Below, one piece after another: positions 23,645-26,931 of a stretch of DNA of 33,041 nt. Under the pieces are notes generated by a model. It had not been told where the DNA came from. It worked only from the letters and a program-made list of their open reading frames with translations, and ran no database searches. How positions within the stretch are numbered: position 1 is the first letter of the stretch; each line of letters opens with the position of its first letter. Origin of the DNA: a virus. A program made the translations under genes and the position numbers. The stretch spans positions 1 through 33,041 of the IMG/VR virus record IMGVR_UViG_3300030098_002065; one strand, given 5' to 3'.

Positions 23645-24820
23645 TTAAGCGTTAGCTGGATATGTTGTACCGAATGCGGCTGGCTTAGTTGTAGTTCCTG
23701 CGAACAGTTCTACACAAGCAGCTGGGTTCAGGAAGTCAGCACCCATTGCTAGGCGTCCGAGGATCACATCACCCTGGTAGATTACATTTATGTCACCAGA
23801 TGTTACTTGAACTTGTGGTCCAATTGCTTCGACAACACCTGCGGCTTCCTTCTGGAAGATAAGTCCACAAGAGTTACCAAAGTCAGAAGAGTTACCATAG
23901 TTGTTGTTGATACCTGTAACAGAAGAACGAGCATCTTCAGTAGATACTTCAACAAATGAACCAGTGTTACCTGGGTTCACTGTATCAAGGTCACTACCAG
24001 CAGATGCACCTGAAGCAGGAGCATATTTAGTACCGTATCTATTGAAGAATGGTACATTCATTGACTTGTAGATATGGATACCTGCAATTTCAATGATTCC
24101 TTCTCCGCTTTGTAAGGCTGTACCTTGTACGTCACGGTTGATCAGGTTGTTGTTAGAACAATCTTTAATCAAAGCATAATATTGCCTTGGGTTCAAGACA
24201 GCACAACGACCATCGTTACTGATTCCCTTCTCGTCTAGAGCTGCAGCTGCATCATAGAATGCAGTTACAAGAGTAGATGCTGTTAGTGCGTCATCAGCAT
24301 TAGAACCAGCTCCTACTTGGATCTGTGTTCCACCTGGCTCAACGAAGTTTGCCTTCGTGATAGGGCTGGCTTGACGAGCACCTTTAGCAATTGCTCTAAA
24401 GATTAGGCGGTCATACTTTTCTGCAAGTGCATAACCAATCTTCTTAGAGATCTCGCCACGTAAGTCATAATGGGCAAGTGTCTCATCTAATTCATATACG
24501 AATGCACTAGAGATCAATAGATCGTCAATAGTGATCGTCTTCTCAGCTACTGGAGGTGCTCCATCACTGTTACCTAGGATGCTTTGGCCTGGTACATGGT
24601 ACTCGGCTGTGGTGCGACCCGTGTAGATGAACTGTAATGATTTACCGTTCTTCAGGGTTCTCTTGGTAACAAGGTCTCTAGCGATTGTATTACGCTGGAA
24701 GCCTTTGAACATCTCTCCACTAAACAGCTTGAGGTATAGAGCTCTTGAATCGCCGGTCGAGTTCGATTGACCCGGCCGCGTCAGATCGGCAAGAGGCTCA
24801 TTACTATTTTGATGTGCCAT
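23645..24820 (-). CDS. Major capsid protein (T7 gp10)
   Basis: A 391-aa coat protein that forms the icosahedral head (T7 gp10A has 345 aa). The N-terminal arm (SNEPLADLTRPGQSNSTGDS) is followed by LYLKLFSGEMFKGFQRNTIA, the conserved gp10 segment, then the beta-hinge and spine regions including GKSLQFIYTGRTTAEYH and a PGQSILG loop. The stretch DDLLISSAFVYELDETLAHYD and the later RPRQYYAL-type motif (VLNPRQYYALIKD) fit HK97-fold podovirus coats. It has its own 126-base leader and a strong terminator after it, so capsid mRNA is probably abundant. Confidence 0.96.
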   Translation of the reverse strand: MAHQNSNEPLADLTRPGQSNSTGDSRALYLKLFSGEMFKGFQRNTIARDLVTKRTLKNGKSLQFIYTGRTTAEYHVPGQSILGNSDGAPPVAEKTITIDDLLISSAFVYELDETLAHYDLRGEISKKIGYALAEKYDRLIFRAIAKGARQASPITKANFVEPGGTQIQVGAGSNADDALTASTLVTAFYDAAAALDEKGISNDGRCAVLNPRQYYALIKDCSNNNLINRDVQGTALQSGEGIIEIAGIHIYKSMNVPFFNRYGTKYAPASGASAGSDLDTVNPGNTGSFVEVSTEDARSSVTGINNNYGNSSDFGNSCGLIFQKEAAGVVEAIGPQVQVTSGDINVIYQGDVILGRLAMGADFLNPAACVELFAGTTTKPAAFGTTYPANA

Positions 24821-24946: not shown

Positions 24947-25090
24947 TTAGATAGAGATCCGACTCTGAGGTGTCTCTATCCTTGCACAATAAGGTGCAGC
25001 TTTGTGATGATATCGAGTATGTAATCCCTCGATAAATATAAAAATAGCCAGCAGTCCGAAGACTGCCAGCCACAGTTCATTCACTTTCAT
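24947..25090 (-). CDS. Small membrane protein upstream of capsid, 47 aa
   Basis: The protein opens MKVNELWLAVFGLLAIFIFI, a single membrane helix over residues 5-21 with little positive charge before it, then a His/Arg-rich polar part (about 22-47). The ATG overlaps the TGA of the upstream 53-aa gene (ATGA). It would sit in the host inner membrane or thylakoid. No function is known to me. Coupling and the clear helix support it. Confidence 0.6.
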   Translation of the reverse strand: MKVNELWLAVFGLLAIFIFIEGLHTRYHHKAAPYCARIETPQSRISI

Positions 25091-25248
25091 GAAGTTAATG
25101 CTTCTTCTAATGAATTGTATTCTTCATCAACACCTGGAGGTTGCTTGTCACTAGGTAAAGTATCAGGATGTTCCTCTGGTTTATTGTGATGAGTTTGAGG
25201 AGAGAAAGACGTAATAAACGCAGTTCTTCCTTTACTTTGATGAGACAT
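25087..25248 (-). CDS. Small hydrophilic protein, 53 aa
   Basis: It begins MSHQSKGRTAFITSFSPQTH and continues with Pro, Glu and Asp, ending in an acidic helix (EEYNSLEEALTS). It is probably disordered or partly helical. Its ATG lies in the stop of the 33-aa YRG peptide (TAATG) and its TGA in the start of the membrane protein (ATGA), so the three are translated as a chain. That chain starts just after the riboswitch-like RNA, so all three may be under its control. Function is unknown. Confidence 0.6.
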   Translation of the reverse strand: MSHQSKGRTAFITSFSPQTHHNKPEEHPDTLPSDKQPPGVDEEYNSLEEALTS

Positions 25249-25349
25249 TAATTCTTTTTGGTGTAAGTTATGCCACGATACTTGAGTTTTTGTTCCTTTT
25301 TAAAAAATTCTTGCTCTTTAACACGAGCTTGAAGTTCTAATGGAGACAT
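25248..25349 (-). CDS. Downstream peptide with YRG motif (DUF4278-like), 33 aa
   Basis: The peptide starts MSPLELQARVKEQEFFKKEQ and continues to LKYRGITYTKKN. The L-x-YRG-x-x-Y pattern is that of the small cyanobacterial DUF4278-type family, also found in short peptides of cyanophages. It has a good Shine-Dalgarno site (GAGG, 25357-25360) that lies a few bases from the predicted pseudoknot of the upstream RNA, an arrangement suited to ligand-controlled initiation. In picocyanobacteria small peptides are the usual genes behind the Downstream-peptide RNA. A role in host nitrogen metabolism is an inference, by analogy with the small glutamine synthetase inhibitor regulated by the related glnA RNA. 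Confidence 0.75.
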   Translation of the reverse strand: MSPLELQARVKEQEFFKKEQKLKYRGITYTKKN

Positions 25350-25356
25350 AATAATA

Positions 25357-25420
25357 CCTCATAGTACCTAGCCCCCGTTCCATGACTAGGTTTCATGCGT
25401 CCTTAGACAGGATGAACGGA
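25357..25420 (-). promoter_or_regulatory. Putative glutamine riboswitch (Downstream-peptide RNA class)
   Basis: On the minus strand three pairings can be drawn. P1 pairs CCGTTC (25414-25419) with GAACGG (25375-25380). P2 pairs TCCT with AGGA (25409-25412 and 25400-25403) around a five-base loop. A pseudoknot pairs ACCTAG (25386-25391) with CTAGGT (25366-25371). The bases CGTTCATCC and GGACGCATGAAACC agree, from memory, with the conserved core of the Downstream-peptide RNA, a glutamine aptamer found in Synechococcus, Prochlorococcus and their phages. The pseudoknot ends six bases from the Shine-Dalgarno site of a short peptide gene, the genomic context this class is named for. I could not run a covariance search. 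Confidence 0.8.
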
Positions 25421-25427
25421 CGTGGCG

Positions 25428-25487
25428 TTAATATGAAGGTCTTGTAGGTCTAGGCTTTTTAGTACCTTTTTCTTTTTTCTTAGGCAT
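25428..25487 (-). CDS. Possible 19-aa basic peptide overlapping the psbA end
   Basis: A short frame begins at an ATG inside the last codons of psbA and encodes [19 protein letters not shown]. It is almost purely Lys, Arg and Pro. The overlap with psbA resembles the coupled junctions elsewhere in this phage, and the frame ends exactly before the riboswitch-like RNA. It is very short and there is no independent ribosome site, so it may not be a gene. Confidence 0.35.
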
Positions 25488-26565
25488 ATTCTATAGTTGG
25501 TGCTGTTAGAGCAACCTCAGATGTTTCAGCTGAAGCTAGATCGAGTGGAAAATTATGTGCGTTCCTTTCATGCATTACTTCCATACCTAAGTTAGCACGG
25601 TTAAGAACGTCTGCCCACGTAGGTACTACTCGACCACTTGAGTCTAAGATAGACTGATTGAAGTTAAAGCCGTTGAGATTGAAAGCCATAGTTGAGATTC
25701 CCATAGAGGTAAACCATACGCAAACGACTGGGAAAGTGGCCAGAAAGAAATGAAGAGAACGGCTATTATTAAAGCTTGCATATTGAAAAATTAATCTACC
25801 GAAGTAGCCATGAGCAGCGACGATGTTATACGTCTCTTCCTCTTGACCAAATTTATAACCATAGTTTTGTGATTCAGTTTCAGTAGTCTCTCTGATGATT
25901 GAAGAAGTAACGAGACTTCCGTGCATAGCAGCGAATAAAGCTCCCCCGAACATCCCAATAACACCCAACATATGGAATGGATGCATGAGGATATTGTGTT
26001 CGGCTTGAAAGACAAACATAAAATTGAAAGTACCGGAAATACCAAGAGGCATACCATCACTGAAACTCCCCTGTCCGAATGGATATATAAGGAAGACAGC
26101 AAAGGCTGCTGATACTGGTGCTGAGTAAGCTACTGTTATCCATGGTCTCATTCCTAGTCTGTAACTAAGTTCCCATTGTCGTCCCATGTAAGCAGAGATA
26201 CCAATGAGGAAGTGCATGATAACGAGCTGGTAAGGTCCGCCATTGTAAAGCCATTCATCGACACTAGCTGCTTCCCAGATTGGGTAGAAGTGCATTCCGA
26301 TGGCATTGGAGCTGGGGACCACTGCTCCTGAGATGATGTTGTTGCCATAAAGTAAAGATCCAGCAACTGGTTCACGTATGCCGTCTATGTCTACAGGCGG
26401 TGCTGCGATGAAAGCGATAATAAAACAGGTTGCTGCTGTTAAAAGTGCGGGTATCATAAGAACACCAAACCACCCCACATAGAGGCGGTTATTAGTGCTC
26501 GTAACCCAGTCACAAAATTCATCCCAATTCTGAAGAGGGGATTTTTGTACTGAGATTGTTGTCAT
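25480..26565 (-). CDS. psbA: Photosystem II reaction centre protein D1
   Basis: A complete 361-aa D1 protein, full length for cyanobacteria, which replaces damaged host D1 during infection and keeps electron flow running. Landmark residues are in place by standard numbering: Gln130 in YMGRQWEL (a D1:1-type residue), Tyr161 (Tyr-Z) in FLIYPF, Asp170 in GSFSD, the [16 protein letters not shown] segment around the P680 histidine, and [10 protein letters not shown] in the plastoquinone (QB) pocket. The C terminus keeps NFPLDLA followed by a removable extension, as for processing after Ala344. No intron or frameshift is seen. It lies 3 bases after the beta-barrel gene and downstream of hli, in the usual cyanopodovirus site before capsid. 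Confidence 0.98.
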
Positions 26566-26568
26566 AAT

Positions 26569-26931
26569 TTAGAATGCGTATTTAACGCCTAGTTTTGTAC
26601 CATAAGAGTTGTCGGTATCTTCATCAAATAAATTTGAGAAGGCTACCTCACCATAAACATCTAGTTTATCTGTAGCAGCTACGGAACCACCGAACTTACC
26701 AGACCAAGCTGAGTCAGAGTCAACGCCATCTGCAGCGTTGATTGTCTTACCACCTTGTACATAGTAATCAAGTGATCCGAATGCATTCTCATAACCTACA
26801 TGTAAGTCAGTAGCTCTTGATGTATAATCAGAGCCAGTGTAAGAAGCATTAGTTTCTACATTAACATAAGGTCCAGCGATTGCAGGAACTGTAAAGATAG
26901 ATGCTGTTAGTGCAAGTACTATTTTTTTCAT
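26569..26931 (-). CDS. Small outer-membrane beta-barrel-like protein
   Basis: A 120-aa protein with a clear signal peptide (MKKIVLALTASIFTVPAIA, cleavage before GPYV). The mature part of about 100 aa is made of alternating polar and aromatic strands (YVNVETNASYTG, DLHVGYENAFGSLDYYVQGG, AWSGKFGGSVAATD, LDVYGEVAFSNLF, YGTKLGVKYAF) separated by Asp/Gly/Asn turns. It ends in a Phe, the C-terminal signature that the BAM machinery recognises. About six strands is short for a porin, so it may form a small barrel, or a multimer, or be a periplasmic beta protein. The ATG overlaps the hli stop (TAATG) and psbA follows directly, so it belongs to the photosynthesis cassette. Role unknown. Confidence 0.8.
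   Translation of the reverse strand: MKKIVLALTASIFTVPAIAGPYVNVETNASYTGSDYTSRATDLHVGYENAFGSLDYYVQGGKTINAADGVDSDSAWSGKFGGSVAATDKLDVYGEVAFSNLFDEDTDNSYGTKLGVKYAF

Follow-up and report, generated by a model that had tools for sequence, protein, structure and literature searches.

A Glutamine-II riboswitch-family RNA of T7-like cyanophages and its conserved pairing with codons of the YRG mini-ORF that follows it

The locus and its neighbours

The window analysed here is a whole stretch of 33,041 nt of viral DNA (virus record IMGVR_UViG_3300030098_002065 of IMG/VR). In transcription order, its relevant part holds a scaffold gene, a 52-aa ORF, hli, a gene for an OMP-like barrel (PF24653), psbA, a 19-aa ORF, a riboswitch aptamer, a mini-ORF with a YRG motif, a 53-aa ORF, a 47-aa ORF, and the major capsid protein gene (Table 1). 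The three small ORFs that follow the aptamer (25349-24947, minus strand) overlap head to tail through TAATG and ATGA, and these overlaps suggest a translational coupling to the riboswitch-controlled ORF. The 19-aa ORF on the other side of the aptamer is rich in lysine and proline and ends one base before the 5' strand of a helix named here P0, so a ribosome terminating at this ORF would cover P0. The cyanophage OMP-like beta-barrel gene (26569-26931, minus strand) adjoins psbA in the window, and in other phages it has been found directly 3' of the YRG ORF.

Table 1. Features around the aptamer, in transcription order (positions in the window)
Feature	Positions	Strand	Basis or remark
psbA (photosystem II D1), upstream	25480..26565	minus	phrog_182, E 4e-193
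19-aa ORF overlapping the psbA stop	25428..25487	minus	read from sequence
P0 5' strand GCCACG, directly 5' of the aptamer	25421..25426	minus	pairs with the Arg-Gly codons 25277-25272; covariation
Glutamine-II riboswitch aptamer (RF01704)	25366..25421	minus	cmscan, 59 bits
Six-base pseudoknot, CCGUUC 25419-25414 with GAACGG 25380-25375	25375..25419	minus	
P1 hairpin, UCCU 25412-25409 with AGGA 25403-25400	25400..25412	minus	cmscan alignment
P2 helix, CCUAGU 25390-25385 with GCUAGG 25372-25367	25367..25390	minus	P2 loop holds the 3' strand of the pseudoknot
P3 5' strand, GGUACU, bulged A, UGAG	25358..25368	minus	end of P2 3' arm plus ribosome-site spacer
Shine-Dalgarno-like GAGG	25357..25360	minus	7 nt ahead of the start codon; sequence
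33-aa YRG mini-ORF, MSPLELQARVKEQEFFKKEQKLKYRGITYTKKN	25248..25349	minus	ORF list
Strand inside the ORF, CUCAAGUAUC followed by GUGGC, codons L-K-Y-R-G	25272..25286	minus	3' strand of P3 (25286-25277) and of P0 (25277-25272)
53-aa ORF, start overlapping the mini-ORF stop (TAATG)	25087..25248	minus	homologues in other phages
47-aa ORF with hydrophobic stretch, overlapping the 53-aa ORF (ATGA)	24947..25090	minus	weak match to phrog_27060 (function unknown), E 3.3e-4
Major capsid protein gene, downstream	23645..24820	minus	phrog_267, E 6.7e-84

An earlier note on this DNA had placed the RNA at a junction between psbA and the capsid gene, and only one half of this description has proved general. 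In a first neighbourhood set of 122 viral matches, in which the window is counted twice, the capsid gene lies downstream in 104, at a distance of 226-1527 nt; for the other 18, the sequence available on the downstream side is shorter than 1000 nt in 16 and about 1.2 kb in two, and none of them has the capsid gene upstream. psbA was found upstream in 88 of the same matches, and therefore the capsid gene, not psbA, is the constant neighbour. The link to psbA has to be considered incidental, because the aptamer precedes the capsid gene also where psbA was not found; psbA was rejected as the defining neighbour for this reason, the capsid gene being always downstream given enough sequence.

Family membership, distribution and the YRG mini-ORF

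A search of the window with cmscan returned a single Rfam match in the 33 kb, to RF01704 (Glutamine-II, formerly Downstream-peptide), with 59 bits against a gathering threshold of 33, an E-value of 5.2e-12 (1.2e-15 when the record was searched alone) and the full length of the model covered (1-60). The glnA RNA model (Glutamine-I, RF01739), which the earlier note had proposed to run beside it, gave no match in the window at its gathering threshold. P1, P2 and a six-base pseudoknot had been drawn from the letters within a 64-base stretch; the positions agree with those of the alignment, and the strand is the minus strand. Among 244 phage homologues, the cells of P1 are 98% paired, the fourth pair being A-U, C-G or U-A, and those of P2 are 99% paired, with covariation at four of its pairs. 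Related phages thus carry co-varying pairs at several positions of P1 together with P2, whereas the pseudoknot is kept (98% paired) but near-invariant, and therefore gives no covariation signal. In the crystal structure available for a family member from Prochlorococcus, the glutamine pocket is built by bases of the pseudoknot, and the pocket nucleotides in that numbering (C1, G2, U3, U4, C5, G18, C19, A33, and G35-G42) are all present in the window RNA (PMC6698751). Covariance score, covariation, and pocket conservation bear out the reading of a glutamine riboswitch-like RNA: on every point that can be judged from sequence, the window RNA is a member of the Glutamine-II riboswitch family, and by analogy with that family it would bind glutamine.

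The Glutamine-II aptamer is not unique to the window but widespread across T7-like cyanophages. RF01704 scores above its cut-off (48-56 bits) in all five T7-like isolates examined, P-SSP7, P-GSP1, 9515-10a, S-RIP2, and S-TIP37, so that the presence of a Downstream-peptide RNA in a cyanophage, which the earlier note had mentioned, can be seen directly. The taxa of this RNA were given as 'Cyanobacteria, marine' in its description (Weinberg et al., 2010; PMC2864571). In the four T4-like isolates examined (P-SSM2, P-SSM4, S-PM2, and Syn9), RF01704 did not rise above its cut-off. T4-like contigs gathered with a looser pattern bear Glutamine-I (RF01739), often as tandem matches, and the idea that all viral matches are Glutamine-II was rejected on this ground; since the looser-pattern matches are mostly Glutamine-I, the covariation sets do not contain them. 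In a series of T4-like contigs (L244, L256, L263, L280, L287, L304, L307, L312, L317, and others), glutamine-aptamer matches stand in tandem, separated by about 3 nt, ahead of YRG ORFs; the tandem of L244 was confirmed as RF01739, and the tandem copies seemingly have one common inner helix. PhotoRC-II RNAs (RF01717) were also observed in T4-like contigs bearing glutamine aptamers (L246:1021-1116 and L265:1397-1492). Glutamine-II itself occurs also outside the T7-like phages, since a 75-kb viral contig carries it beside a tRNA and a 39-aa YRG ORF (L267:7960-8105).

Both a ribosome site six bases past the 3' end of the aptamer and a 33-aa peptide with a YRG motif had been described from the letters, and both hold. 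A complete YRG ORF started by ATG was found in 286 of 298 T7-type matches; of the remaining 12, ten run off the end of their contig, and in two the YRG codons follow a TTG start. The dN/dS ratio of the mini-ORF is 0.24 (57 distinct homologous N-terminal stretches of long-type ORFs, with the paired codons left out), and by this measure the mini-ORF is conserved and protein-coding. Its product resembles a fragment of DUF4278 (PF14105), a domain that forms the N-terminal part of IF17, a glutamine-synthetase inactivating factor (PMC6316151). The window peptide matches the last DUF4278 unit only (profile positions 46-57), with 15.7 bits, below the Pfam cut-off of 25.3. The cut-off is passed by three of six YRG proteins tested from T4-like contigs (27.3-38.8 bits), where a YRG ORF lies within 80 nt of 111 of 132 looser-pattern motif matches. 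In the hosts Prochlorococcus and Synechococcus, the ORF after the aptamer encodes either a DUF4278 protein that contains several YRG-like units or a member of another family, of 56 aa. In the model phage P-SSP7 the YRG ORF has 17 aa (MKVTFVYRGVAYTRVIG) and bears no annotation in the record examined. A GC-rich hairpin resembling a tRNA T-arm lies 3' of the YRG ORF in this phage (L362, GGGAGGTGCGAGTCCTCCC) and, as a close variant, in P-GSP1 (L369); ARAGORN found no tRNA at either hairpin, and NATL1A-7 has a tRNA-Gly between psbA and the capsid gene.

Pairing of the YRG codons with both flanks of the aptamer

Folding of the window module (-42.6 kcal/mol, z -2.4 against shuffled sequence) places one strand of the mini-ORF, CUCAAGUAUCGUGGC (codons L-K-Y-R-G), against two sites. 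Its first part, CUCAAGUAUC, pairs with GGUACU(A)UGAG, that is, with the end of the 3' arm of P2 and the spacer with the Shine-Dalgarno sequence, in a helix named here P3; its second part, GUGGC, forms P0 with the GCCAC that immediately precedes the aptamer. The Shine-Dalgarno sequence of the window has a predicted probability of 0.69 of pairing with the ORF strand. The predicted pairing of the Shine-Dalgarno sequence with the YRG strand is 0.61 with the own ORF vs 0.22 with an ORF swapped from another phage.

P3 shows strong covariation. At least six of its seven pairs can form in 220 of 244 distinct T7-like sequences, and its variable pair is C-G in 114, U-A in 75, A-U in 16, and G-C in nine of them. 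Spacer and codons change as partners (CU with AAG, UA with GUA, AA with GUU, and G with ACC), and the helix is 88% paired in register vs 18-67% when slid. In an alignment of 55 sequences, with the variable pair as U-A in 24, C-G in 19, A-U in five, and G-C in five, its covariation score was reached by none of 500 shuffles. An unbiased scan of spacer by ORF returned P3 as the top register in T7-like phages (0.93 paired); the same scan gave nothing similar in the T4-like set (peak 0.60) or in the host set (0.77, with one extra pair type and little diversity). In a phylogeny-aware test on a tree of the module without the helix strands, both sides of the variable pair change on 17 branches vs 4.3 expected (p < 0.0005), 13 of these changes being from pair to pair, whereas eight mismatched control pairs gave p from 0.04 to 1.0 with at most one pair-to-pair change each. 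A good P3 is absent from S-RIP2 and S-TIP37. By covariation, P3 is established as a conserved pairing in T7-like phages, and in most of them part of the mini-protein's coding sequence has co-evolved to fold back over its own start site, a pairing that appears to be the working part of the switch.

P0 is a probable pairing in T7-like phages, with weaker phylogeny-aware support than P3. In the window, five of its six pairs have a probability of 0.83-0.87. P0 is the best six-base window in the whole upstream-by-ORF matrix, and at least five pairs can form in 179 of 244 T7-like sequences, the helix being absent in about a quarter. The synonymous third positions of the Arg and Gly codons match the 5' strand of P0, one site being G-C in 111 and A-U in 92 sequences, with no G-U, and the other A-U in 206 and G-C in 18. 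The 21 independent contrasts of A-U vs G-C all agree on a tree of the capsid gene; the module tree was used for P0 because linked transfer could inflate the contrasts of the capsid tree, and on it seven and five contrasts agree, with none of the opposite G-U/A-C type, the same-branch co-changes giving p 0.06 and 0.10. The presence of P0 in all groups was rejected: its pair counts fall into two peaks, with six pairs in 156 sequences and three in 45, and the host and T4-like sets have no clear excess. In spacers of the group lacking P0, and only there, GAAC is enriched (22% vs 4% in shuffles), as would fit a possible pairing between the pseudoknot strand and the ribosome site. Phages of the S-TIP37 type, which lack P0 (L006, L040, L056, L061, L073, L090, L098, L101, and L370), carry UUCGUAC just 5' of the aptamer, whose complement, GUACGAA, immediately precedes the start codon, and this complementarity is a possible alternative platform.

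Proposed mode of action and comparison with known systems

According to published work, the Glutamine-II family binds glutamine and acts as an ON switch, judged to be translational from its position (PMC6698751, PMC6316151); in one Prochlorococcus strain, glutamine has been reported to activate expression under the type 2 riboswitch (PMC6316151, PMC6698751). The reading preferred here, with a probability of roughly 0.6, is a translational, glutamine-activated riboswitch on a polycistronic phage mRNA, which would control the YRG mini-protein, perhaps together with the small ORFs that are coupled to it, by means of an expression platform within the controlled ORF. With the aptamer unbound, the codon strand around YRG would pair with the spacer and the Shine-Dalgarno region (P3), covering the ribosome site, and the same strand would probably be paired also with the 5' flank of the aptamer (P0). 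Glutamine would stabilise the pseudoknot and P2; the two terminal G residues of P2 are common to P3, so that P3 would be weakened and initiation favoured, after which the first ribosome would clear the YRG strand. The ON direction, the competition between P2 and P3, and the effect on the phage are what we infer from these relations. Against the proposed switch counts the finding from earlier in-line probing, as given in PMC6698751, that P2 is already formed without ligand. ViennaRNA modelling supports the competition in part: with P1 and P2 forced and the pseudoknot strands blocked, modelled P3 falls from 0.75 to 0.52, and the mean accessibility of the ribosome site stays at 0.42. The computed switch is therefore small, and a simple accessibility switch, which ViennaRNA did not reproduce, was rejected.

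The mini-ORF might instead be mainly a glutamine-gated leader that controls the next ORF (the small ORF, the OMP-like barrel or, more remotely, the capsid gene) through the overlap of stop and start, a tentative reading that draws on the ORF overlaps in the window and on the constancy of the capsid gene downstream. Of 202 homologues, 128 have a further ORF that begins at -12 to +40 nt relative to the mini-ORF stop, overlapping or abutting it in 45, and therefore coupling effects on neighbours are possible; yet the other 74 homologues have no such ORF, the gap between the mini-ORF and the capsid start is at least 149 nt, and the dN/dS ratio, together with the retention of YRG across unrelated aptamers and hosts, argues for a functional peptide. 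An OFF switch is unlikely. In that case the glutamine-bound aptamer would join its two ends, and P0 and P3 would be stabilised as one closed structure that covers the ribosome site at high glutamine. One continuous strand does serve both helices and bridge both ends of the aptamer, and imposing P1 and P2 in the model leaves P0 at 0.68; on the other hand, ON behaviour has been reported for the family in a picocyanobacterium (PMC6698751, PMC6316151), and P3 drops when P2 is forced, because of the two shared G residues. It is improbable that P0 and P3 are unrelated to the ligand and form a stable fold marking a boundary of RNA processing or stability between the psbA and capsid messages, since P3 specifically covers and covaries with the Shine-Dalgarno region and the aptamer pocket is fully conserved, although shuffled sequence folds less well than the module, and the genes on both sides of it are probably strongly expressed.

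To our knowledge, the working ends of phage riboswitches are mostly unknown. One riboswitch at a fixed site ahead of the capsid gene across T7-like cyanophages, which are probably abundant marine viruses, would under the preferred, glutamine-activated reading directly connect infection with the glutamine of the host, which serves picocyanobacteria as a nitrogen signal. The comparative data yield a specific expression platform that is open to compensatory mutation, and they offer a handle on the role of DUF4278 mini-proteins. Among the papers searched, none joining DUF4278 with phage was found, and searches on Glutamine-II, or on P-SSP7 with riboswitch or phage, returned none on the topic by title and abstract. 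No earlier description of the codons around YRG in T7-like phages pairing with the ribosome-site spacer was found either, although Additional File 1 of Weinberg et al. ('a possible regulatory mechanism') may foresee part of it. Riboswitches have been described as rare in phages (PMC9004378). A broader, doubtful proposal is that two unrelated cyanophage lineages use two different glutamine aptamers, releasing only at high host glutamine mini DUF4278 (IF17-like) proteins that would act on nitrogen assimilation of the host, with the anti-ribosome-site strand of the T7-like lineage lying in the motif codons.

The closest known system is the Glutamine-II RNA of Prochlorococcus and Synechococcus, including Yfr6, to which the window RNA is alike in aptamer sequence, in the fold of P1, P2, and pseudoknot, in the pocket nucleotides, and in the short ORF downstream. 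It departs from the family in two respects, a phage-specific expression platform within the ORF and a controlled protein cut to one YRG unit. In contrast to the host RNAs, it is phage-borne and next to a capsid gene, its ORF is reduced to the last YRG unit of DUF4278, and the ORF strand pairs with the spacer (P3) and the 5' flank (P0), neither of which is shown by the host set. Glutamine-I (glnA RNA, RF01739) in T4-like cyanophages is also a phage-borne glutamine aptamer ahead of YRG ORFs (PMC9964418, PMC9004378), but it has a different fold (a three-way junction), is often in tandem, precedes longer DUF4278-like proteins, and no P3-like pairing was found in it. Another example is the Glutamine-I RNA of the methylophage Melnitz, which is linked to tmRNA and not to a peptide (PMC9964418, PMC9004378). 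Finally, the type 1 glutamine riboswitch of IF17 (gifB) in Synechocystis likewise governs a small DUF4278-containing protein whose synthesis is activated by glutamine (PMC6316151); IF17, however, is a full glutamine synthetase inhibitor of which DUF4278 is only the N-terminal moiety, whereas the phage mini-ORF consists of the YRG unit only, and any target is putative.
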